Assembly: GCA_949291125.1 (NCBI GenBank)
Contig: CASEUJ010000011.1
Coordinates: forward strand, 1 to 33,748
DNA from: an uncultured Ruminococcus sp.
GTDB lineage: Bacteria > Bacillota > Clostridia > Oscillospirales > Ruminococcaceae
DNA length: 33,748 bases
Direction: 5' to 3'
A program made the translations under genes and the position numbers. The notes under the pieces were generated by a model. The model was not told where the DNA came from. It was given only the letters and a program-made list of their open reading frames with translations, and did no database searches. This document shows, one piece after another, positions 271-17,891 of this stretch (positions are counted from its first letter, which is position 1; each line of letters opens with the position of its first letter).

Positions 271-3200
271 TTACAGACAAGCCGCGTTTGGATGCCGTTC
301 AGAATTCTCCATCTTTTCCGATAATAGCACATGCTCGTTCTGATCGAATTGTAATTGTGCATTGAGTTGTGCAAGACGCTCGGATTTTTCTGCTAGCTCT
401 GCTTCTTTAGCAAATGGTTTTTCTAACTCTGCCTTTGCGTATTCAAGCTGTGTCTGACAATCCTCAATTTCACGCTCACACTGTGTAACACTTTCCGGAA
501 TACTTTCCAAACGATTGTTAATTCGAGTGATATTTCCATCTGCGCTGCCGCTTAATGACACGCGGTAACGTCCATTTCCGCTTAGAATTGCCGTATATTC
601 TTTGATTAGGGGATCAAAGTAAACTTCTATGAGAAATCCACGATATTCTCCCACAGTAGAGGGGACGGTACTGTGAATCGATTGGATTGCATTCAGCAGC
701 GCTTTTCCGGCATTCTTTTTTTCCGAATATGTAATATCGCCGATCTTCATGGGTGAAAAGCCCTGTGCGTTTCTCCTTGTGCATTCTTGCAAACGACTGA
801 TATCAGCAATGTAGTTTTGCATCCGCTTCTTTGTGGAAGCCATCTTTTCCGGGAATTCCCGCAGCACGCTGTCCTCTAAGCGATACTTTTGGTTGAGATA
901 AGTCGTTTTTGCCACTTTTAGTAGACGAACTTCATTATCCAACTGCATCTGCTCTTTCATGCGCTCATCGGAAACACAGCATGCTTTAATCTCGGCGTAA
1001 TTCAGCGCTCGATCATCGATATCCTCCATGCTTCGTTCACCGGTTGTTGGAGACATAAACTGAGAGATCATTTTTTGCTTTCGTTCAATGATTTGCCAGC
1101 TATAAGCGTCAAATGTGTCTTTTGTGATATAGCGGTAGATATGTACATGCTGATTTTCATTCCCTCTGCGAATGATTCTGCCTTCGCGCTGCTCTATATC
1201 GGAAGGTCTCCAAGGTACGTCGAGGTGATGCAATGCAATCAGACGTGTCTGAACATTGGTCCCTGCCCCCATTTTGCCGGTAGAGCCAAGCAAGATACGT
1301 ACTTCGCCTTTGCGTACCTTTTCAAAAAGTGTTTCCTTTTCCTTTGGCTTTTCATAATCGTGTATAAACGCGATTTCATGTTCCGGGACGCCTTTTTCTA
1401 CCAGCTTTTCTCGAATTGACTGGTAGATACTACGAAATCCTTCTTCCGGTTCTGTACGTTTCGGTGTAGATAAGTCGGAAAAAATCAGTTGTGTGGAACG
1501 CTGCGCCACCGTTTCTTGCCAGATGCGGAACACATTGTCCGCACAGGCACTTGCTTTGCTGGTATCACTTTCCGGAATCAAAGGGTTGATCGTCCGCTGA
1601 TCTAATGCCATTTTTCTGCCGTCATTGGTGATGGCAAGCATATTGTCCACGGATGCATCTACCATACCACTACGCACAGCTGAAGCGCGTTCCAGAAATG
1701 CATCCATCATCTGCGCTTGAAACTCACTTCTCTCCAGCGAAACGGTATGATATTCCGCTTCCGGCACTTCCAAGTGCAACATTTGCGCTGTCTGTACATC
1801 TGCAAATTCTAGAAACATCGATTTCAGTTCACTTAGATTATTGAATTTGGAAAAGCGCGTTTTTATACGATAATAGCTGCCTTCCGGTGCAAGCTCTGCC
1901 GCAGTGACCGCTTCAATGAAGTTTGCTGCCCAAGCATCGAAATGCAGCAGCCCATATTCTTTCATTTGTGCTTTATTCAGATATTTCTGGAATGTATACA
2001 CTTCCGCGATACTGTTGCTCAAAGGTGTGCCAGTAGCCATAATGCAGCCCTTTCCGCCAGTGCGCTCATCCATGTACTGTGTTTTTAGATATAAATCAAA
2101 CGCATTTGCGCTGCCGGCAGGCAAATTGATATTATCCATTTTGGATACAACGCCGAGATTTTTGAATAAATGTGCTTCGTCCAGAAACAGACGGTCAAAG
2201 CCGAATTCATCAAAGAAAACAGTATCGTCATCATTCTGCTTGTGATGAATGACTTCCAGTCGTTTATCAATGCTTTTCAGTATTCCTTCCGTTTGTTTTA
2301 CTGTAAAGTTTTTCCCGTCACTATTGCGTTTTGCTTCATTTAGAATTGCCAAAATTTCAGCGCGTTCCCTGTTCAGCATGTCCTTCTGTCGTTCTGATGA
2401 CAGCTTCAGCGATGTAAACTGAGAATGTCCCATGATAATTGCATCATAATCGTGCAGCAGTGCGTCTGCCAGAAAAGCGCGGCGTTTTTCCGGTGTAAAA
2501 CTCTGCGGCGTGGCAACCAGTATATTAGCTGTAGGATACAATCGCAGAAAGTCCGCTTCCCATTGTCTGGTCAGATGATTTGGAACCACAATCAAATTCT
2601 TTCTGGATAGTCCCAATCGTCGCAGTTCCTGCGCCGCAGCAATCATTTCAAAAGTTTTGCCGGCTCCAACGGTATGTGCCAGCAGTGTATTGCCGCCATA
2701 AATGATCCTGGCAATGGCATTCTTCTGATGCGGATATAGCGTAATTGCAGGGTTCATGCCGGGAAAATTCAAGTAAGCTCCATTGTATTGCCTTGGGCGA
2801 ACCGAATTAAATTGTTCGTTATACCGGGTCACAAGATCCATTCTTCGTTCCGGGTCATTCCAAATCCATGACGCAAAGGCGTCACGGATTTTTTCTTCGC
2901 ATGCCTGAACCTTTTCCGTTTCCACCTGATTAAGGATGCTTCGCGTTTTTCCATCAGCGTCCTTTATCGTGTCATAGACACGGGAAGATCTTGAATTCAA
3001 AAGATTTTCCAGTACCTTGTACCCATTGCAGCGTTTTGTTCCATAGATTTCTCCGGCTTTTAAGTTTATACCGGTTGTGTGGTGAGAACCATAGACGTAG
3101 TATACATTACTGCTCGGTTCGAATTCTACTCTGCCTTTCTTCTCCCATGCTGACGGTTGAAACAGTGTTTCGGAAAATGCCTGATAATACCTCACTGGAA

Positions 3201-6200
3201 TCCATGTTGCCCCTAGGCGTACATAGATATCACCTGCTTCTAGGTCTTTTGGCTGTACTTTTTCCAAACAAGTGACATTCACAGCATACATATCGTCCTT
3301 TTCAGCAGCGTGCCGCGCTTCTCTGAGTTTTTTTCTTACGTTGCCGGAAAGATATTCATCTTCAGTCAGATATTTTTGTGAAGTTTCGTCATTCGAATTG
3401 TAAAGAGGGTTACGAAATATACTGCCGGTCAGTGCACCTGCAAGAAACTCTTCTGGTTTACCGGTCAGCTCCATCATGTACGGCATATCTACGCGTCCTC
3501 TCTCGTTCATGCTGTAAATGAGTGCGTCCTGCGGAGTTTCTGCGCTCTGAATCACTGGAGTCGGCTGAATAATTCGATCTGTAAAAATTTCTGTTTTCCC
3601 CAAAAAAGTTCCATTCTCGTCATACTCTTCCAGCCGTGTCAACCGATAGTAACTCTTGTCTAGGCGAAGAATTTTCGCATTGTCTTTGTCCGCAATTCTA
3701 CCATATTGACTGACAAATTGCTCATAGGCAAGATCCAAATCTGCTTGTTTTCCGGAAATGATGTCATCGGACGCATTTTCTGATTCTAATTGAATCAGTT
3801 CGTCCATCACATCTCGAATGGTAATCATCATGCGCAGCATGGATTCCGCTTTTTTCTGGTATGCTTTTGCAATGCCCATTTTCTGTGCGTTAAATTCCAT
3901 AATATCCTGATTTGCGTTTTTGAAATACAGAGTTTCATTTTCTACAAAAAAGCTTTCCGATCGTATCTGTTCCGCATCAATCTGCAGCTGCGTGATTGTG
4001 ATTTCCTGCATATTGATCTGTGCGGAAGGAACCGGAACAAGTGGCAGATGCGTCACTGCCTGTTTCAGTTGTTCCTTCAGGGGCGCAGGCAATGTGTCCA
4101 GACATTCCGCCGTCATACCAAATCGACCGCTGATCATTTTCATTTCACCTAAAATCATTTCCGGATGAGAAACAAAATAGGCGTTCATAGTGATTCCAGC
4201 TTCATTTACAGCTAAAGAAATCCATTCTGGGAGTTGTCCCATCGGTTCTGTCCGCTTCCGCAAAAAGAGAATATCAGAGGTAACCGTTGTCCCGGCTGCT
4301 TCTGAAAAGGTGTTATTCGGAAGACGGATCGCACCGATCAATTCCGCACGTTCCGCAATGTACCGTCGAACCATATCATTTTTCTTATCCATTGTACCTT
4401 TTGACGTAATAAACGCCACAATACCGCCGGGGCATACTTGGTCCAGCGTCTTTGCAAAAAAGTAATCATGGATCAGAAAATGATTTTTATCATACTTCGG
4501 ATCAGATAGCTGAAAATCTCCAAACGGCACATTGCCCACAGCCGCAGTGAAACTGCCGTCTGCAAAGGTTGTCTTTTCATAGCCTGTTACAACAACATGG
4601 TCGTTGGGGTACAGTTGCTTTGCAATTCTGCCGGATATGCTGTCGAGTTCCACACCGTAAAATTTGCAGTTTTGCATGGATTCCGGACGTAACCCCAAAA
4701 ATGCGCCAACGCCGCAGGAGGGTTCTAAAAGATTTCCTGAAGTGATGCCAACACGTTCCAAATAATCATAAACAGCGCGAATCACAACCGGCGGCGTATA
4801 GAATGCAGTAAGCGTAGATGCTCTGGCAGCAGCATATTCGTCTTCTGTCAGTAGAGATTTTACCGTGTCATACATGAAACCACCCGGTTCAAAAACTTGC
4901 GGCAGACCACCCCATCCTACATACTCTGACAAGAGACACTGTTCTTCACGTGTTGCTGGCGTTCCTCTCAGTTCAACCTCTTTTAAGGTGTGGATTGCCT
5001 GTACGTTTGCTTGGATGCGTTCTTTTGGCGTGCCAACGCCAATAAAATCATCTATAATACGATAATTTTCTGCGTTTGTCCGTACACTTTGCGTCTGCGT
5101 GTATTCTTGTTTCCAAGTAGACTGATTCGGCTGTGCTTTCGCAGCAAAGTATGTATCAGCATATGTTTTTGTCAGTTCCAGGATGATTTGTGCTGTTTGT
5201 GCCTGTCCAGTTAGCACTTCTGCTGCGCCCGGCTGTGCAGCTTCTTCTATCAGAGATCTAAGATACTTCTCAATTGGTTCGGTATTGCCTGATCGCAATA
5301 GTTCTACTGTGTTTTCCGATACATCTTTTTCGATATGAAAATCCCAATCGAACATATCCGCGAATCGATCTAAATCATAGACATAGGGTTCGCCCAACAT
5401 CTGTGGTACATCGGTAAAAGCGGCGGAGATGTCGCGTACGCCGTCCGCAATGTTGCGCATTGCCCGTTCCTGTAGCAGTTCGGTAGAATCAGCCAGATAT
5501 ACAGTAAGATTATCTGTGGATAGTTGGTCGAAAGAAATATCAGATGCACCGTCCGCTGCATGTACGGAAAATCCGTGCGCCAGCATGCTGGCAGCAGTAT
5601 CTGCGTCAATGGCGGTCATGTTTTCCGGGATATGTTCTGGCATTTCGGGTTGAAGCAGACCATACTCTTTCAGAATTTTCTTTGCTTGACTTAGATGGAA
5701 ATCATCGGAAGATGGCTCTTGCATGACATGCTGTGCGTTTCGGATACGCGCTGCGATCTCTTCTTGCATAATGTATGTACCGGATTCGATCAGATCGTAC
5801 AGTTTTTTCGCAATGACATTCCAGGTGAATTGTGCAGACTTTTTTTCTCCCTTTTCGGTGTAGAGAATTTCCATGCCTTTTCCATCGTAATTGATGAAAT
5901 TTACATTGCCGTTTCCGCTGTGTCCGCCAATCCCATATTCTTGTTTCAGTATGGCTGCAAAGGCTTTGATGTTCTTTGGATTTTCCTGACAGAATTTTTC
6001 CACACGGAATTTTCCATCTTGAAACATTGTACCACGTTTTAGATCATCGATAAGATATTGTTCTATGTCCACAGATTCTGACTCAGCGATCATAGGTCTA
6101 TCGGGCACTATTTCTGTTTCAATATCCGCATACCCACGAATCGGGTTCCTTGCCTTAAAATCTTCCAGTGTCTTTTGCTCCTCGGCTGTCAATTCAGAAT

Positions 6201-8442
6201 GCGCTTCAAGAAAAGGAATAAAAATATCAAGCGTGCGCTTTGCCTTTTCTTTAGCTTCGGGCGTATTATATGGATAATTGTTGGAATCTATCATGCCTTG
6301 ATTGAAATCCCGGATATGGTCGATCAGACTGCCGCCGCCTGCGCCTTTTCCATCGCCGATGTCAATTCTTCCTTCATAACTGAATGCATCGCCGTCAATT
6401 TCTGCATTAATCATAAAGTTGGTCTTTTTGTACCAGCCGGCGTGAAGATCTTTCAAATTACGCTCGGTATGCTGCTTTTCGTCAAGATATTCCACAACAG
6501 CATTGGCAAGTGCAAAACGCATGTCGGGATGCTTCTTTGCAAAATCGGCAAGCAAATCACTTTCTGTAAACCATGCATCATCTGCTCTATCAGTATTACC
6601 GAAATAAAAGATGAGTTCTTCGCTTTGGATTTCTTTCGTGGTGCTCTCTGGATTTTCGTTAACTTGAACAATGGAGTCCAATAATGAAGTCTGACTGGGA
6701 AGGGATGATCTGATAGGATGAAGCGATTTTTCTCTCATATTCCAATAATCCAAATGCCATTTTTTCAATTGCCCATTGATGCTTTGATTGTACGCTTCTG
6801 AGCTATGAGGATAATCAGACGGGATCTGTATCAAGCCTTTGTCAAGCAGTTCTCGTTCTGCAACGCAGGCATCACAATCTTCTTCAAAACAAAGATATCC
6901 ATTTTCAGTGAAGCCCTCTTTTCTTGCTTCTTTGGAAAGCATATACTTTGCTATATCAATATGAATCATAATCCCGCCATGTGACGGCGTAGAAACGCGG
7001 AATACCCCATTGCACAATTCATAATGGCTTTCTACCGTTCCCCATGGGGAAATATCAGGTGAAAAATACGGCGGTGCTGTGCTGATGTGGAGACGATCTG
7101 CTTTATTCAGCGCTGTAAACCTAGTTTCGGGGAGTTTGTCTTTTATCGACAGATTGGTAGCAGATGGGGATTCTTTCAGCGAAGTAAATTTGCTTTGAGT
7201 TTCTAAAAATGTACCGTTATTCGCTTGTGCCTTAAAAAAAGATGCGGAAACAGGTGAATCTGCTTCCGCATCTTTTTGATTTATGTCATGTTTCGGTACG
7301 TTTCCGGAATCTGGTATACGACTTCCTTCATCACCTGATTCTCGATGGTTCGCAGCCGCTTCAGATCCCAATCTAGGAAGGCTTTCCGGTTGTTTTCTCT
7401 GTCCGGTGCCGGATCTTGTTGGCGATACTGCTTGTCCAGCGCTTCGAATCGTTCCTGTGCCGTTATATCCACTTCGTTTATCATCACCTCGAAATCGAAT
7501 TTCTTCGACTGAATAATGGCGAGAAGGATTTTCAGATGATTTTTGCTCATCCATCTGTTCCAGAGTTTTCCCCATTTTCCCAGAAAGGTCCTGGCTTTGT
7601 TCAGAAGCAGATCCAGTTCTTCTCCCGGAATGATTCCGAACCAGCTGTCCATCTCGCTGTCTGTGATCAACGATTTCATTCGTGTCAATTCTGCTCTCGT
7701 CATGTTGCAATTCCTCTTTTCTGATTATATTCTGCATGCTTTTGATACTTTTGGTATAGATTCTCTGTGCTAGAGTGCCGAACCGAATAAAATTCCTCAC
7801 ATCATTGCGAAACAGCGAAAATCCGAACAAGTCCGGCTCCGGAACATGTACGCCGGGAACATCTTGCACGCAACGCAGATGTACCACATACCGTACTGTT
7901 TCGATAAGTAACTGTACATATTGCTGTTTTTGTTTCTCGTCCCATCTTGCCATCTCACAGTGACTGTTAATTAGTCGTTGCACGGCTTCCTGCCAAATAA
8001 AATGTTTTGCTGTGCCGATGCTCAACTGTGCAAAATCTTCAAACAATTGGCTTTCGGATGTGCCTATCACCTTGCATAGTTGTTTTTCGTATGCCGAAAA
8101 TGAAAACGGTTCGGGGATCATCGGTTCTTGCATTGGCTTGTTTCGATCAATCACTTGTGATGAATCAAATAGGAACAACAGTGCATTTTGGCGATTGGTT
8201 TCATCAAACACTGCGATGCCATGTTCACCAGCCCGAATAGACAATCCCATAGAGTTCCAGCCTGCGGCAGTTGCGACTTTTGTCAATTTTGAATTTTCTC
8301 GAAACACCAGCGCCGCATTGGAAAACGGCAGACCATATAGATGAGAAGAAAATTGCAGAAACTGCAAATACACATCCGGTTCAGACAGTAGCTGCTGCGT
8401 AATTTCTGCCCAGTTCTGCTGAACTTCCCTCATGTTTGCCAT
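271..8442 (-). CDS. Giant ICE methylase-helicase (ArdC-like N-terminus, N6 adenine methylase, SNF2/DEAH helicase)
   Basis: A 2723-residue protein of the LtrC/Tn1549 type. I chose the ATG at 8442 because AAAGGAGG sits 7 nt upstream; a longer frame to 8574 lacks such a site. Residues about 10-85 resemble the ArdC single-stranded-DNA-binding domain. Residues about 247-387 are a Gly/Ser/Arg/Gln-rich linker that overlaps another gene. A DUF7007-like segment follows (HGGI and EEDCD motifs). The methylase has EPSCGVGAF near 1242 and GNVPFGDF near 1306, in place of the usual NPPF. The helicase has Walker A GAGKT near 1927, DEAH near 2089, ATGTPLSNS, and QREGRIIRRGN near 2420, followed by a coiled-coil-rich tail. 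Family members are standard ICE genes, thought to modify or remodel element DNA during transfer. The exact role is inferred. Confidence 0.92.
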   Translation of the reverse strand: MANMREVQQNWAEITQQLLSEPDVYLQFLQFSSHLYGLPFSNAALVFRENSKLTKVATAAGWNSMGLSIRAGEHGIAVFDETNRQNALLFLFDSSQVIDRNKPMQEPMIPEPFSFSAYEKQLCKVIGTSESQLFEDFAQLSIGTAKHFIWQEAVQRLINSHCEMARWDEKQKQQYVQLLIETVRYVVHLRCVQDVPGVHVPEPDLFGFSLFRNDVRNFIRFGTLAQRIYTKSIKSMQNIIRKEELQHDESRIDTNEIVDHRQRDGQLVRNHSGRRTGSASEQSQDLSGKMGKTLEQMDEQKSSENPSRHYSVEEIRFRGDDKRSGYNGTGTIRSAGQAVSPTRSGTGQRKQPESLPRLGSEAAANHRESGDEGSRIPDSGNVPKHDINQKDAEADSPVSASFFKAQANNGTFLETQSKFTSLKESPSATNLSIKDKLPETRFTALNKADRLHISTAPPYFSPDISPWGTVESHYELCNGVFRVSTPSHGGIMIHIDIAKYMLSKEARKEGFTENGYLCFEEDCDACVAERELLDKGLIQIPSDYPHSSEAYNQSINGQLKKWHLDYWNMREKSLHPIRSSLPSQTSLLDSIVQVNENPESTTKEIQSEELIFYFGNTDRADDAWFTESDLLADFAKKHPDMRFALANAVVEYLDEKQHTERNLKDLHAGWYKKTNFMINAEIDGDAFSYEGRIDIGDGKGAGGGSLIDHIRDFNQGMIDSNNYPYNTPEAKEKAKRTLDIFIPFLEAHSELTAEEQKTLEDFKARNPIRGYADIETEIVPDRPMIAESESVDIEQYLIDDLKRGTMFQDGKFRVEKFCQENPKNIKAFAAILKQEYGIGGHSGNGNVNFINYDGKGMEILYTEKGEKKSAQFTWNVIAKKLYDLIESGTYIMQEEIAARIRNAQHVMQEPSSDDFHLSQAKKILKEYGLLQPEMPEHIPENMTAIDADTAASMLAHGFSVHAADGASDISFDQLSTDNLTVYLADSTELLQERAMRNIADGVRDISAAFTDVPQMLGEPYVYDLDRFADMFDWDFHIEKDVSENTVELLRSGNTEPIEKYLRSLIEEAAQPGAAEVLTGQAQTAQIILELTKTYADTYFAAKAQPNQSTWKQEYTQTQSVRTNAENYRIIDDFIGVGTPKERIQANVQAIHTLKEVELRGTPATREEQCLLSEYVGWGGLPQVFEPGGFMYDTVKSLLTEDEYAAARASTLTAFYTPPVVIRAVYDYLERVGITSGNLLEPSCGVGAFLGLRPESMQNCKFYGVELDSISGRIAKQLYPNDHVVVTGYEKTTFADGSFTAAVGNVPFGDFQLSDPKYDKNHFLIHDYFFAKTLDQVCPGGIVAFITSKGTMDKKNDMVRRYIAERAELIGAIRLPNNTFSEAAGTTVTSDILFLRKRTEPMGQLPEWISLAVNEAGITMNAYFVSHPEMILGEMKMISGRFGMTAECLDTLPAPLKEQLKQAVTHLPLVPVPSAQINMQEITITQLQIDAEQIRSESFFVENETLYFKNANQDIMEFNAQKMGIAKAYQKKAESMLRMMITIRDVMDELIQLESENASDDIISGKQADLDLAYEQFVSQYGRIADKDNAKILRLDKSYYRLTRLEEYDENGTFLGKTEIFTDRIIQPTPVIQSAETPQDALIYSMNERGRVDMPYMMELTGKPEEFLAGALTGSIFRNPLYNSNDETSQKYLTEDEYLSGNVRKKLREARHAAEKDDMYAVNVTCLEKVQPKDLEAGDIYVRLGATWIPVRYYQAFSETLFQPSAWEKKGRVEFEPSSNVYYVYGSHHTTGINLKAGEIYGTKRCNGYKVLENLLNSRSSRVYDTIKDADGKTRSILNQVETEKVQACEEKIRDAFASWIWNDPERRMDLVTRYNEQFNSVRPRQYNGAYLNFPGMNPAITLYPHQKNAIARIIYGGNTLLAHTVGAGKTFEMIAAAQELRRLGLSRKNLIVVPNHLTRQWEADFLRLYPTANILVATPQSFTPEKRRAFLADALLHDYDAIIMGHSQFTSLKLSSERQKDMLNRERAEILAILNEAKRNSDGKNFTVKQTEGILKSIDKRLEVIHHKQNDDDTVFFDEFGFDRLFLDEAHLFKNLGVVSKMDNINLPAGSANAFDLYLKTQYMDERTGGKGCIMATGTPLSNSIAEVYTFQKYLNKAQMKEYGLLHFDAWAANFIEAVTAAELAPEGSYYRIKTRFSKFNNLSELKSMFLEFADVQTAQMLHLEVPEAEYHTVSLERSEFQAQMMDAFLERASAVRSGMVDASVDNMLAITNDGRKMALDQRTINPLIPESDTSKASACADNVFRIWQETVAQRSTQLIFSDLSTPKRTEPEEGFRSIYQSIREKLVEKGVPEHEIAFIHDYEKPKEKETLFEKVRKGEVRILLGSTGKMGAGTNVQTRLIALHHLDVPWRPSDIEQREGRIIRRGNENQHVHIYRYITKDTFDAYSWQIIERKQKMISQFMSPTTGERSMEDIDDRALNYAEIKACCVSDERMKEQMQLDNEVRLLKVAKTTYLNQKYRLEDSVLREFPEKMASTKKRMQNYIADISRLQECTRRNAQGFSPMKIGDITYSEKKNAGKALLNAIQSIHSTVPSTVGEYRGFLIEVYFDPLIKEYTAILSGNGRYRVSLSGSADGNITRINNRLESIPESVTQCEREIEDCQTQLEYAKAELEKPFAKEAELAEKSERLAQLNAQLQFDQNEHVLLSEKMENSERHPNAACL
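7281..7703 (-). CDS. TnpV-like protein encoded in a second frame inside the methylase-helicase gene
   Basis: A 140-residue frame lying wholly inside the methylase-helicase gene, on the same strand but in another frame. It starts with ATG at 7703, and AGAGGA lies 8 nt upstream. The product has the layout of the TnpV family named from Tn4451: GKWG (42-45), a short helical stretch, SKKF, then AQERFE (82-87), a Trp-containing helix (DWDLKRL) and an ending close to KEVVY. From memory, TnpV proteins carry AQERFE and an EI(V/I)...E(I/L)(I/V)Y ending at the same places. The first 40 residues do not match well. In the overlap the host frame encodes only a low-complexity linker, so selection may act mainly on this frame. 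TnpV function is not established; an Xis-like role has been suggested. Expression is unproven. Confidence 0.65.
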   Translation of the reverse strand: MTRAELTRMKSLITDSEMDSWFGIIPGEELDLLLNKARTFLGKWGKLWNRWMSKNHLKILLAIIQSKKFDFEVMINEVDITAQERFEALDKQYRQQDPAPDRENNRKAFLDWDLKRLRTIENQVMKEVVYQIPETYRNMT

Positions 8443-8485
8443 GAAATATCCTCCTTTGTGATACCATATTGCTACAAAAAAGCAA

Positions 8486-8513
8486 GAAGCGGAAGTCCTC
8501 TGATTTCCGCTTC
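8486..8513 (-). terminator. Hairpin followed by U-rich tract between the 391-aa gene and the methylase-helicase
   Basis: A perfect 9-bp stem (8486-8494 with 8505-8513, GAAGCGGAA type) and a 10-nt loop lie between two minus-strand genes. In minus-strand RNA it is followed by a U-rich run (UUGCUUUUUUG). It could terminate part of the transcripts before the methylase-helicase and so lower its expression. The U run starts 2-5 nt after the stem, so efficiency may be partial. Confidence 0.6.
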
Positions 8514-8539
8514 GTATTTGCGATTGGCTATGCGTATTG

Positions 8540-9715
8540 TCAATAGTAAAAATACTCATCTCGCAAAATTTCATTGATTTCCATATCGATCTTTGTTTTT
8601 TCTGCGGCGATCTGTTCGTCTGTCATGCCGGCTGATTTTCGCTGTGCAATTTTGCTTTCTCGTATCTTTTCCGCATTGTCCCGAATACTATTGCCGTATG
8701 CGTTGACGGTAGATGCCAGGGAATCTTCCATTAGCTCTGTCAGGTATTCATCGTAGGCATACTCTTTCAGATATTCCAGTCTTCTCCATGCATATCCGGG
8801 AAAGTCTGTGCCGACATTTGGAGACCAAATTGCATCACTATTTGATGCACCCAATTCATTCGCGATAACACGCACACTAACAAGCTGGGCATTGCTGTAT
8901 GGAAGCGGATCGGGAAATTGTCTGGCAATTGTTCGTAGATATCCCATATATTCTTTTGTCTTTTTCTGTATGGCTGTCAGAAGCATCAAAAAACCGCTTC
9001 TGGATTTGGCATGTGTATCTCGCAAGACAAAATCTTTTTCACTGTAACGAGAAAACGGATTCAAGCCACTTCGAAGCATCAACTGAAAATGCACTGCATT
9101 TTGGACAAACTGCCAGAGCCATTCCATCTCCAATTCTGCATTTGTCTTAGAGACGTCTCGTCGATCTTCTTCATCAAAAACGGCAGGGATTCCGTATTCG
9201 CGCAGGAAGTAGTTGCTGTCATATTCCGCGTCTCGATCGGTTGCAATTCGATAGGATTCATAAAATTCTTCCATTTCGCTGTGCGCCGCGTCAGACTGGA
9301 TCATGTTCCAGAGTGCATCCTCCAGCGTGTCAGAGTTTCGATGTACTGCTTCTGCAATATGAAGCTCATAGAGGAGATTGAACGCCCATTTTTCCCTGCG
9401 CACGCTGCCGGAAACTTGTTTTTCCGTCCATACGGGATATAGATTGTAGGCGTCCTCCTCGTCCAAAAGCACAATAGACTCTCTTCCGACCTGGCAGCCG
9501 ATTTTTTCCCAATCCTCTCGGTCTGAGACACTCTGTGCGTCAGGCTTCTGTGCCAGAATGAGAAGTTGATTGACAAATGTTTCTTCGTCGTGAGACGCCG
9601 CAGTGCAGAGAAATTGCAAGAAGAAAATTTGATCTGTTCGCATCGCTTCGATGACGGCTGTCAGGATTTCTCCTACGCTGCACACGTGATGTGGTATAGG
9701 AATTGAATGTTCCAT
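8540..9715 (-). CDS. ICE protein with ArdC-like N-terminal domain, function unknown
   Basis: A 391-residue soluble, acidic protein. AGGAGGT lies just upstream of the ATG at 9715. Residues about 28-95 follow the ArdC N-terminal pattern: a helix (FFLQFL), LILAQKPDAQ, a Trp (DWEKIG), QVGRESIVLL, then Asp/Glu-rich residues. The methylase-helicase directly downstream starts with the same pattern (VYLQFLQF, GWNSMG, RAGEHGIAVF), so the two N-termini look related. The rest is helical and contains no HExxH metalloprotease motif. It is rich in Trp and Tyr and ends with a charged helix (DEQIAAEKTK). ArdC-type proteins bind single-stranded DNA and protect incoming plasmids from restriction. Whether this one does so is inference. 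Confidence 0.8.
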   Translation of the reverse strand: MEHSIPIPHHVCSVGEILTAVIEAMRTDQIFFLQFLCTAASHDEETFVNQLLILAQKPDAQSVSDREDWEKIGCQVGRESIVLLDEEDAYNLYPVWTEKQVSGSVRREKWAFNLLYELHIAEAVHRNSDTLEDALWNMIQSDAAHSEMEEFYESYRIATDRDAEYDSNYFLREYGIPAVFDEEDRRDVSKTNAELEMEWLWQFVQNAVHFQLMLRSGLNPFSRYSEKDFVLRDTHAKSRSGFLMLLTAIQKKTKEYMGYLRTIARQFPDPLPYSNAQLVSVRVIANELGASNSDAIWSPNVGTDFPGYAWRRLEYLKEYAYDEYLTELMEDSLASTVNAYGNSIRDNAEKIRESKIAQRKSAGMTDEQIAAEKTKIDMEINEILRDEYFYY

Positions 9716-9875: not shown

Positions 9876-11546
9876 TTATAGATAATTCATAGGATCCACT
9901 TGCGTGCCGTTCTGTTTGATTTCAAAATGCAAATGGTATCCGGTGGAATGTCCGGTACAACCCACATAGCCGATCACTTGTCCTTGCTGCACAGTCTGCC
10001 CAACAGAAACTGTAATCGTTACCATGTGTCCGTACAAAGTGGATATTCCGTCACCGTGGGAAATTTCGACTCGATTTCCATACCCACCGCCGCATCCGCA
10101 GCTGGAGTTCTTCGGGTAATTATGAGTACAGGAGTTGTCTGCACGTGTCACTGTACCGGCACGGGACGCCACAATTGGTACGCCGGAAATGTTTCCATCG
10201 GAGATATCGATGCCCTTATGTGTGGTACCCCAACGAGAGCCAAAGTAACTGGTAATATTCGTGTGTCCCGGCACGGGCCAGGCGAATTGTGCACCATCTG
10301 TCACAAATTCTATTGTCGTTTCTCCTGGGTTATAGTATCGCAGTACATGTTCTACATATTGCGGATCGCCATATACGCTCCATCCCAGTGCTGCTTTCTG
10401 ATTCTCGGAAAAGAGCTGTGCATTTTCCGGGGTATACTCCCCGGCGTAGTTGTTCCATACCCATGTGATGTAGCCTGTTCCATAGTTGTATCCTTGTAAA
10501 GCAACTTTAATTTGATCCATATCTCCTGGATCAGTGACACGTGCCATTTCCAAACATGTCCGCACATAGCCAACCCCCATGCGAATCGAATCTTCTACGG
10601 TATTTACCGTGCCGAAACCAACTTGCATCACATTGACTCCGATTCCACCGGATTCCTGCATCATAATCGCTTCGATCAATGCCACGTATCTGCCGATTCC
10701 ATTTGCATTGGCATATTGGATAATGAGTGGTTCATATTGCAAGACAGCATCGCTGACAGAAGCAGTTGCATTGCCGGCATTTTGGCGATTTTGTTCTTCT
10801 ACTTGATTGCTTGAAATGCAGACAATTATGACAGCAAAAATTGCGACAATGATAACGAGCACCAATGCAACAATCGCTCCAACGCCGCCACCTATAGAGA
10901 TTGCTTTTTTGGGCGCGGTGGAAGAAGCTGTTTTCTTTGTCGCCTTCTTCGCTGCTTTCTTACTTGCAGTACATTTCGCGGCTTGTTTTTGTTCCGTTGT
11001 AGCGCAAGCACGAGCTTTTTCGGCAGATTTCTCCGCCATTTTTTTCTGTTTGACCTCATCGGAAGTTCGAATGGATTGATAGCCTGCCTTTGTTTTCGGC
11101 GTATACGCTGCATGCTCCGTTTCCCTCGTCTTGATTTTGGACTGTGGAGAAGATGTTTCCTTTTTGTAGTCATTGGAATGGGTTTCTTGCATCTGAATCG
11201 ATTCATTGGGTTTGTGCTGCTTTTGTGCTTCTTTTTCCTGCGTTTTCTCCGCCTTGTCTTTTGTCGTATGTTGGAGAAGCCTTTCCACATCATATATCTT
11301 GCGCTCCATCGATCGGATCGCGTCAGATTCCGGAGATGTTTCATTTTGTGACAGTCCGGCTGCGCTCTCCATGTGACGCATAGACTGCTGCGATTTTCGC
11401 GTGATTTCCCGAATACGAAAAGCGCGATTTGCCATTGCTTTTATGTGTTGATTTGCGGAGGTTTTGGGAGGCTTCTTTTGCGCATCCGAAAGAAGTGTGC
11501 GAATCATTTTATTGTTTTGTTCTCGATCTTGCAGCTTGTATGCCAA
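9876..11546 (-). CDS. Membrane-anchored lysozyme-like / M23 peptidase wall hydrolase of the transfer apparatus (VirB1/CwlT-type)
   Basis: A 556-residue protein starting with TTG at 11546, with GGAGGTGAG about 9 nt upstream. Residues 1-215 are a basic, Lys/Ala/Thr-rich cytoplasmic region. One membrane segment spans 221-244. An SLT/CwlT-like lysozyme domain follows at about 262-400, with probable catalytic Glu298 (MMQESGG) and the GYNYGTGY motif. An M23 endopeptidase domain lies at about 425-550: zinc ligands His443 and Asp447 (HKGID) and the HLH motif at 538-540, with His507. Gram-positive conjugation systems use such two-domain enzymes to open peptidoglycan for the channel. Tn916 CwlT pairs a lysozyme with an NlpC/P60 domain; here the second domain is M23. 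In related ICEs it usually follows the VirB4 gene, but here a block of about 3.5 kb separates them. Confidence 0.92.
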   Translation of the reverse strand: MAYKLQDREQNNKMIRTLLSDAQKKPPKTSANQHIKAMANRAFRIREITRKSQQSMRHMESAAGLSQNETSPESDAIRSMERKIYDVERLLQHTTKDKAEKTQEKEAQKQHKPNESIQMQETHSNDYKKETSSPQSKIKTRETEHAAYTPKTKAGYQSIRTSDEVKQKKMAEKSAEKARACATTEQKQAAKCTASKKAAKKATKKTASSTAPKKAISIGGGVGAIVALVLVIIVAIFAVIIVCISSNQVEEQNRQNAGNATASVSDAVLQYEPLIIQYANANGIGRYVALIEAIMMQESGGIGVNVMQVGFGTVNTVEDSIRMGVGYVRTCLEMARVTDPGDMDQIKVALQGYNYGTGYITWVWNNYAGEYTPENAQLFSENQKAALGWSVYGDPQYVEHVLRYYNPGETTIEFVTDGAQFAWPVPGHTNITSYFGSRWGTTHKGIDISDGNISGVPIVASRAGTVTRADNSCTHNYPKNSSCGCGGGYGNRVEISHGDGISTLYGHMVTITVSVGQTVQQGQVIGYVGCTGHSTGYHLHFEIKQNGTQVDPMNYL

Positions 11547-11615: not shown

Positions 11616-12527
11616 TTAGTAATACACTTTCACACAACTTGTCCCACCAAAACACTTGTCAAAATTCTGATCGATCCAAGAGTCCTGCTTGACAAATACC
11701 TGTATGGTGTTTTGTTCTTCCAAGGGAAGATCGGCACCGCCACTGACCGGGTACAATCCGCAAGTTGTCACAGATGCCGGAATGGTAACGTTCAAAAGAT
11801 TTTTGCAATTTCCAAAGGCGTAATCTCCGATTTCCGTCACACCGTCCGGAATGAAGACATTGACAAGGCTGCTGCATCCGTAAAATGCAATGTCTTCGAT
11901 TGTACGCAATCCTTGATACATTGTTAAACTTAGCAAATCTGTGCAGCCGTAAAATGCACCTTCCTTGATTTCCGTCACAGTTTCCGGAATATCTAACAAC
12001 TGTAAAGAAGTACAGTCCTGAAATGCATAGGGAGATATCGTCTCCGTGTACCAAGGCAGCTCTAGTTGTTCTAAATTCGGGCAGTTGCTGAATGCATAAG
12101 AGCCGATTTCGGTATAGGGATTGGAAAAGGATACATGTTCTATCGTTTCATTGTTGGAAAAGGCGCTATCGGCTACGCTGGTACAATTGATTGGTATCAC
12201 AAGATCTGTTGTGTATGTATCTGTTGTACCAGTGACGGTGTTTTTCTGCATTACATCCCAGCGATAATTGACAGAAGCCTGACTGTCACTTTGCCCGGAA
12301 TCTGCGGTGGGATTATGGATTTCCGGCACACCTGTCGGGTAAATGGGGTTTGCTGTAGTGGCGGTGGTAATCGTTTCCGTTGTGGTTGTCGTAAGCTCAG
12401 TTGTCGTCGTTGCTGCCGCCGTTGTTTCCGCTTTTTCTTCGACCGGCTCATCTTTGCTGCCGCAGCCGGGAATGCATACTGCGGTCAAACATATCAAGAG
12501 TATCGCAAATATTTTTTTCTGTTTCAT
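11616..12527 (-). CDS. BspA-type leucine-rich-repeat lipoprotein
   Basis: A 303-residue exported protein. I chose the ATG at 12527 because GGAGGG lies about 7 nt upstream and a signal peptide follows directly. The lipobox IPGC puts the lipidated Cys at residue 22. Residues about 33-60 are a Thr/Ala-rich linker typical of Ruminococcus surface proteins. Residues about 118-262 hold some six LRR_5 repeats of the form AFxxCxxLxxxxIPxxVxxI. BspA-type repeats commonly mediate binding to host or bacterial surfaces; the ligand here is unknown. It starts 29 bp after the stop of the dockerin gene and is probably cotranscribed with it. It is not a standard ICE transfer gene, so I read it as cargo. Confidence 0.88.
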   Translation of the reverse strand: MKQKKIFAILLICLTAVCIPGCGSKDEPVEEKAETTAAATTTTELTTTTTETITTATTANPIYPTGVPEIHNPTADSGQSDSQASVNYRWDVMQKNTVTGTTDTYTTDLVIPINCTSVADSAFSNNETIEHVSFSNPYTEIGSYAFSNCPNLEQLELPWYTETISPYAFQDCTSLQLLDIPETVTEIKEGAFYGCTDLLSLTMYQGLRTIEDIAFYGCSSLVNVFIPDGVTEIGDYAFGNCKNLLNVTIPASVTTCGLYPVSGGADLPLEEQNTIQVFVKQDSWIDQNFDKCFGGTSCVKVYY

Positions 12528-12555
12528 CGTATTCCCTCCGGAAGTTTTTTGGATG

Positions 12556-14277
12556 TCATTTTTCTGCGGTATACGGCAGTGTGTCAATCAATTGTACTTG
12601 GAAACGCAAGAGTGTCATTGCGTCGTTACCATCCACATAGGAATCATAGTATACATCCGCATTTGCCAGCGCAATCGGTACAAGATCTACTACGCTTACG
12701 GTATACTTATTCAGAAGGATCACATCCGCCATATTGATTGTACCATCGAGGTTGACGTCACCGTATAAAGTGTTATTTGTTTCCGTATAAGTTTCGTAGG
12801 AACCGTCTTCGTGTAAAACGATACGCTCGATCATCATCGCTGTTCCGACAGGGGAAGTGGGAATGCCATGTTCAATGCGCAGCAGATAATATGGCTCTGT
12901 TACACCGCCCTCCGGCACGTCTAATTTTCCATCTTTTGTATAAGCTCCACTGGTCAGAAGCTCTGCCCCGGTTTTGTCATACAACCAGTAGCAGGAAATA
13001 TAGGTGTCCGCATCGGTATACGTACCATCTGCATGCAGTGTGATATATTTTTCCGTCATCACTGTTCCAATTGCAGATGTTGGATCTCCCTGCTCTACAC
13101 GCAGTAGATAATATGGTTCTGTTACACCGCCATCCGGTACCGTTAATCTCCCATCTTCTGTATAGGTTCCGCTGGATAAAAGTACTTTTCCAGTGCTATC
13201 ATACAGCCGGTAGCGGGAAATATTTTGTGATACAGTGGAGGTAGTCGTTGTCGTTGTTACTGATGTTGTGGTGACTGCGGTGGAAGATACTGTCGGTGAA
13301 TCCTGGAAATCGACTGCAACAATTTCACCGTATGTCGTAATGCGTGCGGACGTACTTTCCCCGGTAGTCAGATTCTGAATGCGATAGGTTCCATAGGGCA
13401 GCATGTCAGTTTGCGTTGCCTTGCCATCCTCTGCGATCGTCAGTGATACACGTTCTGTAATACGGCTGTTCTCATAACTGCCGGAGGACTGTAAATACAC
13501 TTGAATTTCATCACCTGCATGCCCTTGAATCGAAAATCTGCCGGAAATCGGAAGCAGGCTCAAATGCATCGTGGCATGGGTATATTGCGGAAAATAGCTG
13601 TTCAGCGCAATCCAGGTATCACCTTCATAGTAGCCCAATTCCTGCATGGTAGAATCCAGATAGTACCCCTCTGGCGCTTCGTTCATCTGTACTGTCCATT
13701 CTCCCTCGTATGAATCCCCATGCAGTGTAAACTCACAAAGCAATCCATCGGCATCGATAGAATATGTGTCGTAGACCTCGCCGTCGTGATAAACAGTATA
13801 AGAGCCGCCGGAAAGCACTGCGTCTCCGCTTGGTTCGGTACTGCCTGTTTTGTAGTCCTTGCAATCAATGGCAATGGTATATGTTTTTTCCGTGTTGGGA
13901 ATAGATGCAATTATGGTAGAACCAGCACTGAGCGTCATAGTCATGGCCGAAGCAGCCAGATATCCGTCTGGAATTGTCTCCCGTATGGTGTATGTAATCG
14001 GATTGCCGGAGGAATCGTTGACAGGCAGCCGAGAGAATACAGCTTGTCCAGAATCGTTTGTGATTTCCGTATAGGTTTTGCCATTTCCGGTAACCGTGAT
14101 TGTTACACCGGATAAATCAGACAGACCACTAACTTGCACAATGAGATTTCCTGCTGCTTCCTCAGCAGAAGCAGTGATCTGGGAAATCATTGTTGTGGGA
14201 ACTGCTTGTGTACCTAGATTGCAGCAGAGTGTACCGAGCGATAAAAGCGTAGCTGCATAAAGAATCGTTCGTTTCAT
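12556..14277 (-). CDS. Secreted dockerin protein with Cna_B-like domains and a tandem repeat
   Basis: A 573-residue secreted protein. The ATG at 14277 has AGAAAGGA upstream and a signal peptide after it; the longer frame to 14493 adds only a shadow. N-terminal segments look Cna_B/prealbumin-like (YTIRETIPDGY; WTVQMNEAPEGYY). A Thr-rich linker precedes two tandem copies of about 72 residues (SRYRLYDSTGK... and SCYWLYDKTGA..., each with GGVTEPYYLLR). Residues about 504-573 form a type I dockerin: GDVNLDGTINMAD is the first calcium loop and ADVYYDSYVDGND the second, ending IDTLP. Dockerins bind cohesins of scaffoldin proteins in cellulosome-making Ruminococcus. No catalytic domain is visible, so the protein may be structural or adhesive. 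A promoter candidate lies about 95 bp upstream. Confidence 0.88.
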   Translation of the reverse strand: MKRTILYAATLLSLGTLCCNLGTQAVPTTMISQITASAEEAAGNLIVQVSGLSDLSGVTITVTGNGKTYTEITNDSGQAVFSRLPVNDSSGNPITYTIRETIPDGYLAASAMTMTLSAGSTIIASIPNTEKTYTIAIDCKDYKTGSTEPSGDAVLSGGSYTVYHDGEVYDTYSIDADGLLCEFTLHGDSYEGEWTVQMNEAPEGYYLDSTMQELGYYEGDTWIALNSYFPQYTHATMHLSLLPISGRFSIQGHAGDEIQVYLQSSGSYENSRITERVSLTIAEDGKATQTDMLPYGTYRIQNLTTGESTSARITTYGEIVAVDFQDSPTVSSTAVTTTSVTTTTTTSTVSQNISRYRLYDSTGKVLLSSGTYTEDGRLTVPDGGVTEPYYLLRVEQGDPTSAIGTVMTEKYITLHADGTYTDADTYISCYWLYDKTGAELLTSGAYTKDGKLDVPEGGVTEPYYLLRIEHGIPTSPVGTAMMIERIVLHEDGSYETYTETNNTLYGDVNLDGTINMADVILLNKYTVSVVDLVPIALANADVYYDSYVDGNDAMTLLRFQVQLIDTLPYTAEK

Positions 14278-14370
14278 ATCAATCTTTCCTTTCTGAATGA
14301 CAATTAACTTTATGTAAATCAGTAGTCTATAAAAAATCACATGCGGATCACCTTCTTTTCTAAATTTCCT

Positions 14371-14400
14371 ATTGTACTTGACAAAGTTTCTGAAATGCAA
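14371..14400 (-). promoter_or_regulatory. Candidate promoter for the dockerin-lipoprotein pair
   Basis: On the minus strand TTGCAT (14400-14395), an 18-bp spacer and TACAAT (14376-14371) form a reasonable sigma-A promoter about 95 bp upstream of the dockerin start at 14277. It overlaps a stronger plus-strand promoter. The boxes fit the consensus only moderately. Confidence 0.4.
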
Positions 14401-14406
14401 TATACT
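14378..14406 (+). promoter_or_regulatory. Strong sigma-A-type promoter pointing to the plus-strand membrane protein
   Basis: TTGACA (14378-14383), a 17-bp spacer and TATACT (14401-14406) give a perfect -35 and a five-of-six -10. The next good plus-strand gene starts at 14653, so the leader would be about 240 nt and antisense to the small minus-strand ORF at 14411-14614. The stretch 14278-14652 is AT-rich and otherwise holds only that ORF. Confidence 0.55.
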
Positions 14407-14410
14407 TTTA

Positions 14411-14614
14411 TCACTTGTTTTCGTCATCGAAGTCAAAAAGAAAGTATTTTTTGATTCCGTTTCGAATGCATTGATAAACACGTGTAGATTCATATTTTTT
14501 TATTTTCATATGAATTTTATGTACTATGTGTTCTACAGCAAAAAAAAGACACCCTCCAACAACAAAAATAAGTGGAATACATAATATTGTGACTACTATT
14601 ATTAAAAAACGCAT
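14411..14614 (-). CDS. Possible small membrane protein (67 aa)
   Basis: A minus-strand frame whose product starts with about 25 hydrophobic residues (MRFLIIVVTILCIPLIF...), followed by a basic region and an acidic tail (FDFDDENK). This is the layout of a small single-span membrane protein. AAAGGA is present upstream, but 13 nt from the ATG, which is far. A strong plus-strand promoter reads across it. It could be a real cargo gene or a chance frame in AT-rich DNA. Confidence 0.4.
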   Translation of the reverse strand: MRFLIIVVTILCIPLIFVVGGCLFFAVEHIVHKIHMKIKKYESTRVYQCIRNGIKKYFLFDFDDENK

Positions 14615-15160: not shown

Positions 15161-17518
15161 TTATCCAGCTGCTTTTTCTTTTTGCTGTTGTTTGAATACC
15201 TCATCCTGTTTGGTTGTCATCAGCTGATACAATTTGGTATCCGTCGGGAAGTCATTGGCAAATGGAATCAGGGAAGAGCCGACTTTCAACAGCCCATGCC
15301 CTGGCTCCGCACCGTTGATATATGACAGCTGTGTTTCCGGAATGTGCAGCATGTCTGCTAAGATCACGGTATCTGTGGGTGCTTGATTCAGCATCACCAA
15401 AAGCTCGCTGTTGGCAATGAGGGAACGGGACTCCTTTGTTTGCAGCACATCTTCGACATTTTGCGTCAAGCCTGTGCAGTTGCCGCCATATTTCCGGACA
15501 CGTTTCCAGAGCTTGGAAAGAAACTTAAATGTGTATGGATGCTGGAACAGAAGATAGATTTCGTCAATAAAGATGAAGGTCTTTTTTCCGTCCTCCCGGT
15601 TTTGGGAAATGCGGTTCATAATATTGTCCAGTACGACCAGCATCCCCACTGTCATTAAGTCTTCTTCCATATCGTGAATGTCATAACAAAGCAATCTGCT
15701 TTGCGTATTGACGTTCGTTTGTTCCGAAAACGTATTAAGAGAACCCTTGGCATACAGTTCAATTTCCAACGCAATATCTTTACCCAATTGTTCCTGCTGT
15801 TGCATGAGTTCTGAATACAGATCACGCAATGTGGGCATGCTTCCTTTTTGCCCACTTTTTAGATACTTACGATAGATGTTACCGCTGCATCGATCAATCA
15901 AGGATCGTGCTTTGGAATCAATTGCGCTGCCAATAATTTCCTCACATAGAGACAACACAAAGCTCTGCTTAATTTTAATTGCATTTTCTACACTTTCGTC
16001 ATACGCCTGTCGAAAATCCATTGCATTGATATGATTCTCTGAAGTTTCCGAGAGGTTGATGACTTCACCTCCTAATTCTTCGATTAATGTTCGGTACTCA
16101 CGATCGGGGTCAATGACAATAATATCCGCATCGGAGTTGAGCATCAGGGAGATGATCTCGTTTTTCCCAAACATGGATTTGCCGGCACCGGATGTTCCAA
16201 GAATGAAACTGTTTCCATTCTTGAGCATCAGGCGATTGACTAGGATCATGTTTCCGCTAACGACATTCTTTCCATAAAAGATTCCATGCGGATGATTTAC
16301 ATCGCGTGTGTTGAAGGGGATGAATGCAGCAAGCGCTTCTGTTGTCATGGTATAGTCAGCTTCAATTTTTTTCACGCCAAACGGTAACGTCGTATTCAAG
16401 CCGTCTAGCTGCTGGAACATCAACGGAACAAGCTGACACATTTTGTTTTGGGCAATCCGGCGAATGCTTTCTGTGTCTTCCTCCAATTCCTCCATCGTAT
16501 CTGCGACATATGCGACGGTAATGGTCGTATAAAAGACACGCTGATCTCTTGTGCGGATATCTTCCTGAAATTCCCGGCATTCCTTTCTTTGCTGTTCGTA
16601 ATCGTAGGGAATAATGGCAGAAAAATTATTGTTCTTATTCTGACTGCGCTGCCATTTTCCGATGTTGGCTTCTACTCTGTCTGCCTGTCTGTCAGCAAGA
16701 CGGTTTGCCTCTTCCATCGATACCGGATTGACTGTAATGGTCAGTATCATATCTTTGTCTGTATCACAGATTTCTTTGATCATGGCATCGCTGATATAAT
16801 TGGCAAAGCTTTTGAAAAATAACACGCGGCAGTATCGTTTGCCAATGCGCAGATAATCTCGCTGTTTCTCCATGCTGTCCGGGCAGATGTAGTCCCGAAA
16901 ATCTCGTCCCAACCGCATTGCACTTTGGAAATCAAACGTATATTGTACTTCTTCACCGTGCCTGTAAAAGCTGTGCAGAATCCGCAAACGTTGCTGCGTA
17001 TCCATTGCTGTAAGGTTAGACCCTAGATCTTTCATCTTGTTGCTTAACGTAGTAGCAATTCGGGAAAACTGATTTCGTACCGTTTGGATATCCTTTTGAT
17101 TGGTAGTAGTGATGGTAATGTATTTTTCCTGCACAATTCCATTGTCTTCGTTGGCATGCTCCGACAAAATCTGATTGTATTCCGTTCGATACTCGTCCAG
17201 ATCATCTGCCTGCATAGGAAAAAGGACATCATGTTCAAATTCTACCATATTTCTCTTGTGATTGCGGATAGTGATCTGTGCCAGATTTCCCGCATCCAGA
17301 CTATTCAATAACTTGGAATATCGTAAAAACATGGTACTTTGATCTTCACTCCCGGCAATCTGATAATTGATATCATCAAAGCGAAACATTTTACTGTAGG
17401 TTTTTTCGCTTAAAAAAATGCCATCTTTCCATATCATCTGTACTGGAATGGCGGCTTGTACGCTTTTTGGAATGACATAGCGCTCTTTTCGCTCGTTCTT
17501 TCGCTGTTTGAAATTCAC
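15161..17518 (-). CDS. virB4: VirB4/TraE-family conjugation ATPase
   Basis: A 785-residue cytoplasmic ATPase that energises assembly of the secretion channel. I prefer a GTG start at 17518 (VNFKQRKNERKERYVIPKSV) because AAAGGA lies upstream. The ATG at 17548 has no ribosome binding site. Walker A GTSGAGKS lies near residue 444 and Walker B FIFIDEIYLLF near 651; the C-terminal RecA-like core is complete. The N-terminal half is the usual VirB4 domain. The gene overlaps the end of the PrgI frame by 128 nt. It is the last transfer gene before the presumed cargo block. Confidence 0.93.
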   Translation of the reverse strand: MNFKQRKNERKERYVIPKSVQAAIPVQMIWKDGIFLSEKTYSKMFRFDDINYQIAGSEDQSTMFLRYSKLLNSLDAGNLAQITIRNHKRNMVEFEHDVLFPMQADDLDEYRTEYNQILSEHANEDNGIVQEKYITITTTNQKDIQTVRNQFSRIATTLSNKMKDLGSNLTAMDTQQRLRILHSFYRHGEEVQYTFDFQSAMRLGRDFRDYICPDSMEKQRDYLRIGKRYCRVLFFKSFANYISDAMIKEICDTDKDMILTITVNPVSMEEANRLADRQADRVEANIGKWQRSQNKNNNFSAIIPYDYEQQRKECREFQEDIRTRDQRVFYTTITVAYVADTMEELEEDTESIRRIAQNKMCQLVPLMFQQLDGLNTTLPFGVKKIEADYTMTTEALAAFIPFNTRDVNHPHGIFYGKNVVSGNMILVNRLMLKNGNSFILGTSGAGKSMFGKNEIISLMLNSDADIIVIDPDREYRTLIEELGGEVINLSETSENHINAMDFRQAYDESVENAIKIKQSFVLSLCEEIIGSAIDSKARSLIDRCSGNIYRKYLKSGQKGSMPTLRDLYSELMQQQEQLGKDIALEIELYAKGSLNTFSEQTNVNTQSRLLCYDIHDMEEDLMTVGMLVVLDNIMNRISQNREDGKKTFIFIDEIYLLFQHPYTFKFLSKLWKRVRKYGGNCTGLTQNVEDVLQTKESRSLIANSELLVMLNQAPTDTVILADMLHIPETQLSYINGAEPGHGLLKVGSSLIPFANDFPTDTKLYQLMTTKQDEVFKQQQKEKAAG

Positions 17519-17891
17519 CTTTTTTCCATCCTTTCTGTTTGGCTGCATCTGCTTGCATTTGCGTTTCCAGTATTTTTTTATAAAAATTATTTCCGATGAA
17601 TTTTAGTTGTTTCGGCTCCAAATAGGTGTATCGAATCCAGACCCATAGGAATTTTCGAAACGGCATACCCTGTACTGTCGGTCCGAAGTCTCCGATCAGT
17701 GCAAACGGGATCATGACTATGGTACCGACAAGCCCCATCATCGTAGCGCTGGAAAAGGTATGGCGAAGAGAAAAAGCGATATACACACTGAAGATAATAC
17801 CGATTGCACCGATGATAATTTGCCGCATTGTCAGATTCAACCAAGAGCGCTCTTGATATGCACGAATCTCTTTATTCATTTTGATTTCCAT
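17391..17891 (-). CDS. prgI: PrgI-family inner-membrane protein of the conjugation channel
   Basis: A 166-residue protein. AAAGGAGG lies just before the ATG at 17891. Two hydrophobic segments lie at about 26-45 and 50-70, followed by FGPTVQGMPFRKFLWVW and YLEPKQLKF, as is typical of PrgI proteins encoded directly upstream of VirB4. The last 40 or so residues (basic, Ser/Arg/Lys-rich) are translated from DNA that also encodes the VirB4 N-terminus. The family is usually shorter, so that tail may be extra. PrgI takes the VirB3-like place in Gram-positive systems. Confidence 0.85.
   Translation of the reverse strand: MEIKMNKEIRAYQERSWLNLTMRQIIIGAIGIIFSVYIAFSLRHTFSSATMMGLVGTIVMIPFALIGDFGPTVQGMPFRKFLWVWIRYTYLEPKQLKFIGNNFYKKILETQMQADAAKQKGWKKGEFQTAKERAKRALCHSKKRTSRHSSTDDMERWHFFKRKNLQ

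Follow-up and report, generated by a model that had tools for sequence, protein, structure and literature searches.

The window analysed here is a stretch of 33,748 nucleotides (nt), contig C11 of an uncultured Ruminococcus sp. whose genome comprises 2.2 Mb in 47 contigs, and its minus strand carries part of a conjugative element. On this strand lies an open reading frame (ORF) of 2767 codons, counted from the first ATG (positions 271..8574), which is predicted to encode a giant DarB-like methylase-helicase and is called the host ORF below. A reading made from the letters alone (the sequence-only reading) had proposed that a complete tnpV-like gene is hidden in a second sense frame of this ORF. 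Such an ORF is indeed present on the same strand: it occupies 7281..7703, runs from ATG to TAA over 140 codons and lies in the +1 frame relative to the host. The hexamer AGAGGA, its presumed ribosome-binding site, was found where that reading had placed it, 8 nt before the ATG (7712..7717, read as 7717-7712). With a probability of about 0.9, we conclude that this one stretch of DNA would encode two proteins, the giant methylase-helicase and the nested TnpV, the linker of the former being overprinted on the gene of the latter.

The nested product was matched by the Pfam TnpV profile PF14198 with 28.9 bits (E 1.2e-6, profile positions 18-106 of 111), which narrowly passes the curated cut-off of 27 bits; in the whole-genome search its score was 28.7 bits. 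The lack of a TnpV hit above threshold, named beforehand as a refutation of the sequence-only reading, thus did not come about. In NCBIfam it had no match. The family layout noted in the sequence-only reading is present as well, including AQERFE and, 10 residues before the end, KEVVY. The predicted structure of the window copy has four core helices (predicted local distance difference test score, pLDDT, 84.2), and that of a Faecalibacterium copy shows a hairpin (strands 5-9 and 12-16) together with helices (pLDDT 87.9). The N-terminal hairpin typical of TnpV is not found in the window model, in which residues 1-40 are helical at a low pLDDT of 58-67; since this hairpin is typical rather than defining, the assignment of the window protein to the family stands. 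A fold search with a predicted TnpV structure gave no confident match. We would infer, weakly, that TnpV likely serves the mobile element as a small, helical accessory protein co-produced with the helicase, and the probability given above does not extend to this role.

The host ORF can be followed from its head, which lies 5' of the nested gene (7704..8442), to its helicase part. Over the nested gene the host frame reads as a linker rich in Gly, Ser, Arg and Gln (7281..7703), as had been described. Next come a DUF7007 domain (6706..7056; Pfam 52.8 bits, host residues 507-623), previously noted as a DUF7007-like part, and an LPD25 domain (6301..6537; 44.6 bits, residues 680-758). Further on are a methylase part (4225..4902), an SNF2-related helicase domain (1612..2691; 43 bits, residues 1962-2321) and a helicase C-terminal domain (1162..1410; 30.9 bits, residues 2389-2471). 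Host residues 1144-2748 match PHROG 10089, a family of DarB-like antirestriction proteins, with 1433.5 bits over both the methylase and the helicase parts; by this similarity the host body belongs to the DarB-like antirestriction family, and its antirestriction activity is putative. The true start of the host may lie further inward, near codon 45. The head can be recovered in relatives with a profile of 135 heads. It had been called ArdC-like, and none of seven heads tested gave a Pfam match above cut-off, which is compatible with a distant relation to ArdC.

A tblastn search with the nested protein of the window gave matches in 17 of the 197 genomes from its family. On one plasmid, pRUMAL02 of Ruminococcus albus, the match was out of frame within a gene annotated as SNF2-related. 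A later survey was queried with the host methylase part, which does not overlap TnpV and was chosen to avoid a bias towards TnpV-bearing loci; this query matched 45 of the 197 family genomes and 83 of 391 genomes of the class. The survey covered 181 loci (174 after removal of duplicates), namely the window, 59 family loci, 40 class loci hand-picked for breadth among 109 places listed, 80 loci from named genomes (the best 80 of 398) and one plasmid. The family set consisted of 61 places, of which 59 were fetched, one was the window itself and one, a fragment (a second piece in genome G030), was left out; a 60th region that was fetched, L110, stood outside the survey. TnpV was sought with a profile built from 28 free-standing TnpV genes, which remained after two nested ones (L048 and L050) had been removed from an initial set of 30.

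With this profile TnpV was found nested in the host ORF in 140 of the 181 loci, in every case in the +1 frame; in 23 loci none was found, in 12 the region was cut off and in 6 TnpV lay outside the host ORF. Five of these six genes lie within the head ORF at +1, the host being split further on, and three of the 23 loci have, at the corresponding place, a TnpV-like ORF of divergent sequence. Two of these divergent ORFs were scored with the Pfam profile and reached 26.4 and 17.1 bits, below its cut-off. For the 174 unique loci the figures are 134 nested, 5 in a split host, 3 divergent, 13 cut off and 19 without TnpV. The TnpV frame is open at the same place in 134 of the 174 unique loci; the stop codons in close homologs that would have spoken against the sequence-only reading did not appear in these related hosts, among which no close homologue of the window copy was found. 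In L223 and L227 the divergent ORF lies at host codons of about 245-406, in the same place and frame, though the profile scored none; since these two loci carry such ORFs, remote TnpV variants may be missed. PF14198 matched all 42 aligned nested proteins, that of the window included (best E 8.7e-45). The named unique hosts of known phylum belong to the Clostridia (47), Bacilli (9), Synergistia (2) and Mycoplasmatota (2). Since metagenome bins make up several of the source genomes, a single record from an unusual phylum may be misplaced.

Separately from the 181 loci, nine plasmid stretches were hand-picked among 30 listed of 1879 matching records. Seven of the nine contain a nested TnpV, once in a split host, and the hosts of the other two (L236 and L237) have no detectable TnpV. 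The plasmid records of Cohnella herbarum and Monoglobus list a 'TnpV protein' and no gene for the host ORF, whereas those of Streptococcus suis, Anaerococcus and Virgibacillus list the helicase alone; the gene table used is incomplete and holds no pseudogenes. In the two records that list TnpV (L231 6265-6603 and L232 4939-5292) the 'TnpV protein' stands at the nested place, and the spanning host ORF is open yet unlisted. The helicase gene of the Streptococcus suis plasmid (L233 5886-13163) holds a nested TnpV of 50.3 bits. It seems that one gene or the other is listed. In S. suis elements, snf2 genes are reported to be sites at which smaller, TnpV-carrying elements insert (PMC9815147).

Since no close relative of the window TnpV was found, the substitution test was made on relatives and not on the window lineage. 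Codon positions 1, 2 and 3 of TnpV fall on host positions 2, 3 and 1. Among 45 pairs of close hosts, the changes in the TnpV region (5282 codons) numbered 878, 633 and 1408 at TnpV positions 1, 2 and 3, and those in the methylase part (8888 codons) 740, 408 and 3119 at host positions 1, 2 and 3. Across TnpV, the substitution peak moves off host position 3 and onto TnpV position 3. Of the 42 pairs that had 10 or more changes, 40 varied most at TnpV position 3, and an earlier run with 15 pairs agrees. Protein identity was 0.785 for TnpV and 0.646 for the overlying linker, TnpV being higher in 44 of the 45 pairs. Because the changes peak at TnpV position 3 and its identity exceeds that of the linker, TnpV is the more constrained frame of the two. 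Constraint confined to the helicase frame, which would have argued against the proposal of the sequence-only reading, is not what these pairs of related hosts display, as it is strongest in the TnpV frame.

These data bear on the possibility that the host alone is functional and that the TnpV frame is the relic of a gene swallowed by it. The window copy would suit such a history, being divergent and having a weaker start signal than usual. A relic, however, predicts most change at the third positions of the host; these correspond to TnpV second positions, the least variable of the TnpV positions. In relatives TnpV is the best conserved frame, and its start codon and ribosome-binding site are kept. 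For the group of relatives a relic is already disfavoured, and overall we regard it as extremely unlikely.

The host frame was examined in the same genes. Synonymous codons were shuffled within each of the 134 unique TnpV genes, and 348.9 host-frame stops were expected against none seen; in the third frame 1930 stops were seen and 1824 expected. For the window gene itself, the host frame was open in only 21 of 20000 synonymous shuffles, the mean being 4.87 stops. T was never found (0.000) at fourfold-degenerate TnpV sites where it would make a host stop, compared with 0.165 in the methylase part. Divergence at fourfold sites was 0.244 in nested TnpV, 0.396 in the methylase part and 0.378 in the head, and the gap persisted where no stop is possible (0.215 vs 0.377, pairs picked by the same rule). 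At 170 such sites the changes left host residues slightly more similar than expected (13 of 1000 simulations as high).

Composition pointed the same way; the composition, linker, start-spacing and TnpV-tree analyses retain 7 duplicate sets. Third positions of nested TnpV genes contain G at 0.457 and T at 0.090, compared with 0.255 and 0.244 in free TnpV genes and 0.227 and 0.277 at host third positions; they resemble host first positions. The window gene has G 0.355 and T 0.121 at its third positions, likewise resembling host first positions (0.324 and 0.173). Hydrophobic residues make up 0.12 of the linker and 0.26 of the frame that shadows free TnpV genes, and in 67 of 138 nested genes, compared with 0 of 28 free ones, hydrophobicity was under the 5th percentile of shuffles of the gene's own codons. 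Both frames are maintained by selection in the relatives, and in the window itself the host frame was the one tested.

It could still be argued that TnpV is the only real gene here, that the host frame is accidentally open and that the giant host protein is not made as a single chain. The two plasmid records that list TnpV and no gene for the host ORF fit that picture, as does the splitting of the host beyond TnpV in 5 of 174 loci. An accidental frame does not account for the complete lack of host-frame stops, the avoidance of stop-making T at fourfold sites, or the altered composition and lowered fourfold divergence that extend to sites where no stop could arise. We consider it very unlikely that the host frame is open by accident.

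The start of the nested gene has features of a site of translation initiation. An ATG start is found in 132 of the 134 unique nested genes, and AAGGAG precedes many of them. When the ATG nearest to the profile start was taken regardless of any ribosome-binding site, a Shine-Dalgarno match of at least 6 nt was present in 57 of 134 genes, compared with 88 of 9135 other ATGs in the same frame of the same hosts; when the choice of start took the Shine-Dalgarno sequence into account, such a match was present in 88 of 134. With this guided choice 8 nt is the commonest spacing (80 of 140), and 2 of 140 starts have no match. The 50 nt around the start have a mean fold energy of -3.62 kcal/mol (98 loci), compared with -8.55 kcal/mol for 392 control ATGs, and the gap holds at similar A + T content.

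Inner Shine-Dalgarno sequences can also stimulate frameshifting. Programmed +1 frameshifting out of the head would give a head-TnpV fusion, with the inner Shine-Dalgarno sequence stimulating the shift. The arrangement agrees with this, the head lying directly 5' of TnpV and TnpV at +1 of the head, in split hosts as well. Frameshifting needs no start codon, yet the ATG is kept at the expected place in 132 of 134 genes, and the spacing is typical of initiation and the structure at the start weak; no search for slippery sites was made. A frameshift product is quite unlikely in our judgement.

In the preferred reading, that of two proteins from one stretch of DNA, the main frame would be read through without a break to give the giant DarB-like methylase-helicase; this frame is open and is kept open. 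On the same message a ribosome would start anew at the internal ribosome-binding site and ATG, in the +1 frame, to give a TnpV of approximately 110-140 residues. For this second product, conserved start signals and purifying selection were observed in relatives; the internal initiation and the TnpV protein itself are what we propose from them. The linker is probably flexible, and its letters would be largely dictated by TnpV.

Several observations weigh against this reading. Both products are predicted from DNA. No TnpV was found in 19 of the 174 unique hosts; 15 of these 19 loci also have no detectable head, and seven (L062, L075, L087, L104, L106, L107 and L108) are counted as broken or as fragments because fewer than 400 host codons precede the methylase part. 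A match of 6 nt to the Shine-Dalgarno sequence is missing at 77 of the 134 nearest ATGs, chosen regardless of a ribosome-binding site. A small part of the deficit of stops may be general, since the initial set of 30 supposedly free-standing genes, of which two are actually nested, also had 197 stops in the host-type frame where 250 were expected. The constant +1 frame was considered as a sign of a single origin and rejected; the remaining frame contains approximately 14 stops per TnpV gene (1930 in 134 genes), and because the other TnpV frame is full of stops, which leaves +1 as the sole frame in which nesting could occur, the constancy adds no evidence. The window copy itself is not a typical one. 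Besides its narrow Pfam score, its AGAGGA is weaker than the AAGGAG typical of most relatives, and it is divergent, with 15% identity to the Faecalibacterium copy in the alignment and 33% to its best match. No close relative of it was found in scans of genome contigs and viral contigs. Searches with the window TnpV gave no match in phages and one distant record in plasmids, and among 16 genomes of the genus searched with the window head only the genome of the window itself and one weak match (E 9.7e-6) were found.

The history of the nesting was approached with trees. In the TnpV tree (138 nested genes and 35 labelled free; a rough FastTree tree of 117 columns and 173 rows) nested and free genes separate with 3 state changes, compared with a mean of 32.4 after shuffling; L007 is labelled free in this tree, though it may be nested, given a weak head match of 32.2 bits in the ORF spanning it. 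Across 60 sampled loci the identity of nested TnpV tracks that of the host methylase (Mantel r 0.724, 0 of 999 permutations as high). On the host tree, also made with FastTree, the presence and absence of TnpV requires 9 changes, with L058, L130, L142, L223 and L227, all five reclassified since (L130 and L142 as cut off), counted as TnpV-less. In the head-bearing, TnpV-less hosts that were read (L100, L229 and L236) no comparable Gly/Ser/Arg-rich linker was found after the head. These findings suggest an old nesting, with the linker as the shadow of tnpV.

The linker looks like the younger, overprinted frame. TnpV would most likely be the older coding frame, in view of its relative constraint and its free-standing relatives, and the linker may have arisen when the head frame stayed open across tnpV and ran on into the helicase part. 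The sequence-only reading had suggested overprinting, with separate ardC-like, tnpV and helicase genes fused by a frame opening across tnpV. The first part of that suggestion holds: with TnpV as the better conserved frame and the linker as its shadow, overprinting is supported as the best-fitting history. As to the second part, a fusion of three genes and an insertion of tnpV into an existing head-helicase gene are equally possible; insertion is possible because there are a few heads that have no nested tnpV.

The neighbouring part of the conjugative element, also on the minus strand, includes genes for a relaxase (23753-25210), a VirD4-type coupling protein (19098-21128), PrgI (17391-17891) and a TraG/VirB4-type ATPase (15161-17548). 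Within the transfer region, 12556-14493 encodes a protein that combines SpaA/Cna_B domains with a dockerin type I domain, and two genes beside the transfer genes (11616-12587 and 9876-11546) encode a BspA-type leucine-rich-repeat protein and a protein with lysozyme-like and M23 peptidase parts. An ORF of 2555 codons on the same strand (25964-33631) with 23 matched SpaA-type stretches probably encodes a giant surface protein of the element. The genome of the window has two further TnpV genes, on contigs C34 (168-500, L044; 150.8 bits) and C47 (4047-4379, L240; 146 bits), and L044 has stops in its host-type frame.

Among known systems, the TnpV of Tn4451 and its relatives belongs to the same Pfam family, PF14198, as the nested TnpV; it differs in that these are separate genes beside recombinase genes and not nested in a helicase gene (PMC3158075). 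That source also postulates a role in excision from similarity to lambda Xis, a role which the present data neither support nor refute. With the DarB-like antirestriction proteins (PHROG 10089) the host has the methylase-helicase body in common. The lambda spanin genes offer a parallel to the nesting, Rz1 being embedded in the +1 frame of Rz (PMC5295617). In both cases a complete small gene shares the strand of a longer one and occupies its +1 frame, and the host segment over the nested gene tolerates change and is linker-like. Both spanins are known to act together in lysis, whereas tnpV and its host are known from their genes alone. Unlike Rz1 and Rz, the TnpV family has many free-standing members, its host is a giant methylase-helicase, and the pair is found in elements of several bacterial classes. 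The comS gene codes for a regulator and occurs in one species group; tnpV, in contrast, encodes a mobile-element protein, recurs among many hosts and seems to predate the frame lying over it. The two are alike in that comS, within srfAB of Bacillus subtilis, also encodes a small functional protein in another frame of a very large gene (PMC12915044). Among the literature matches listed there was no report of a TnpV nested in a helicase gene, most subscription journals being outside the coverage. The present arrangement differs from these two nested pairs in its spread, in that the nested gene belongs to a mobile-element family whose members otherwise stand alone, and in the probable origin of the linker by overprinting.

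We lean slightly towards the view that an old overprinting event gave rise to a fixed tnpV-in-helicase unit which has been passed on together with DarB-like helicases of mobile elements across several bacterial classes, the linker being a second reading of tnpV and both products coming from one message and acting together. Long genes nested on the strand of their host are generally regarded as rare in bacteria. If this view is true, few of the same-strand nested genes known from bacteria would be as widespread as tnpV-in-helicase, which would have escaped notice since annotation as a rule admits a single gene per stretch. With the same nesting at the same place in 134 of 174 unique loci and measurable selection on both frames, the arrangement offers ample natural material for studying how two proteins are served by one sequence and how overprinting creates a protein segment. 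It bears on the annotation of a common conjugative-element gene and links the unexplained TnpV family to a DNA methylase-helicase. The function of TnpV also becomes testable, since the nested start codon can be taken out while the host protein stays unaltered.

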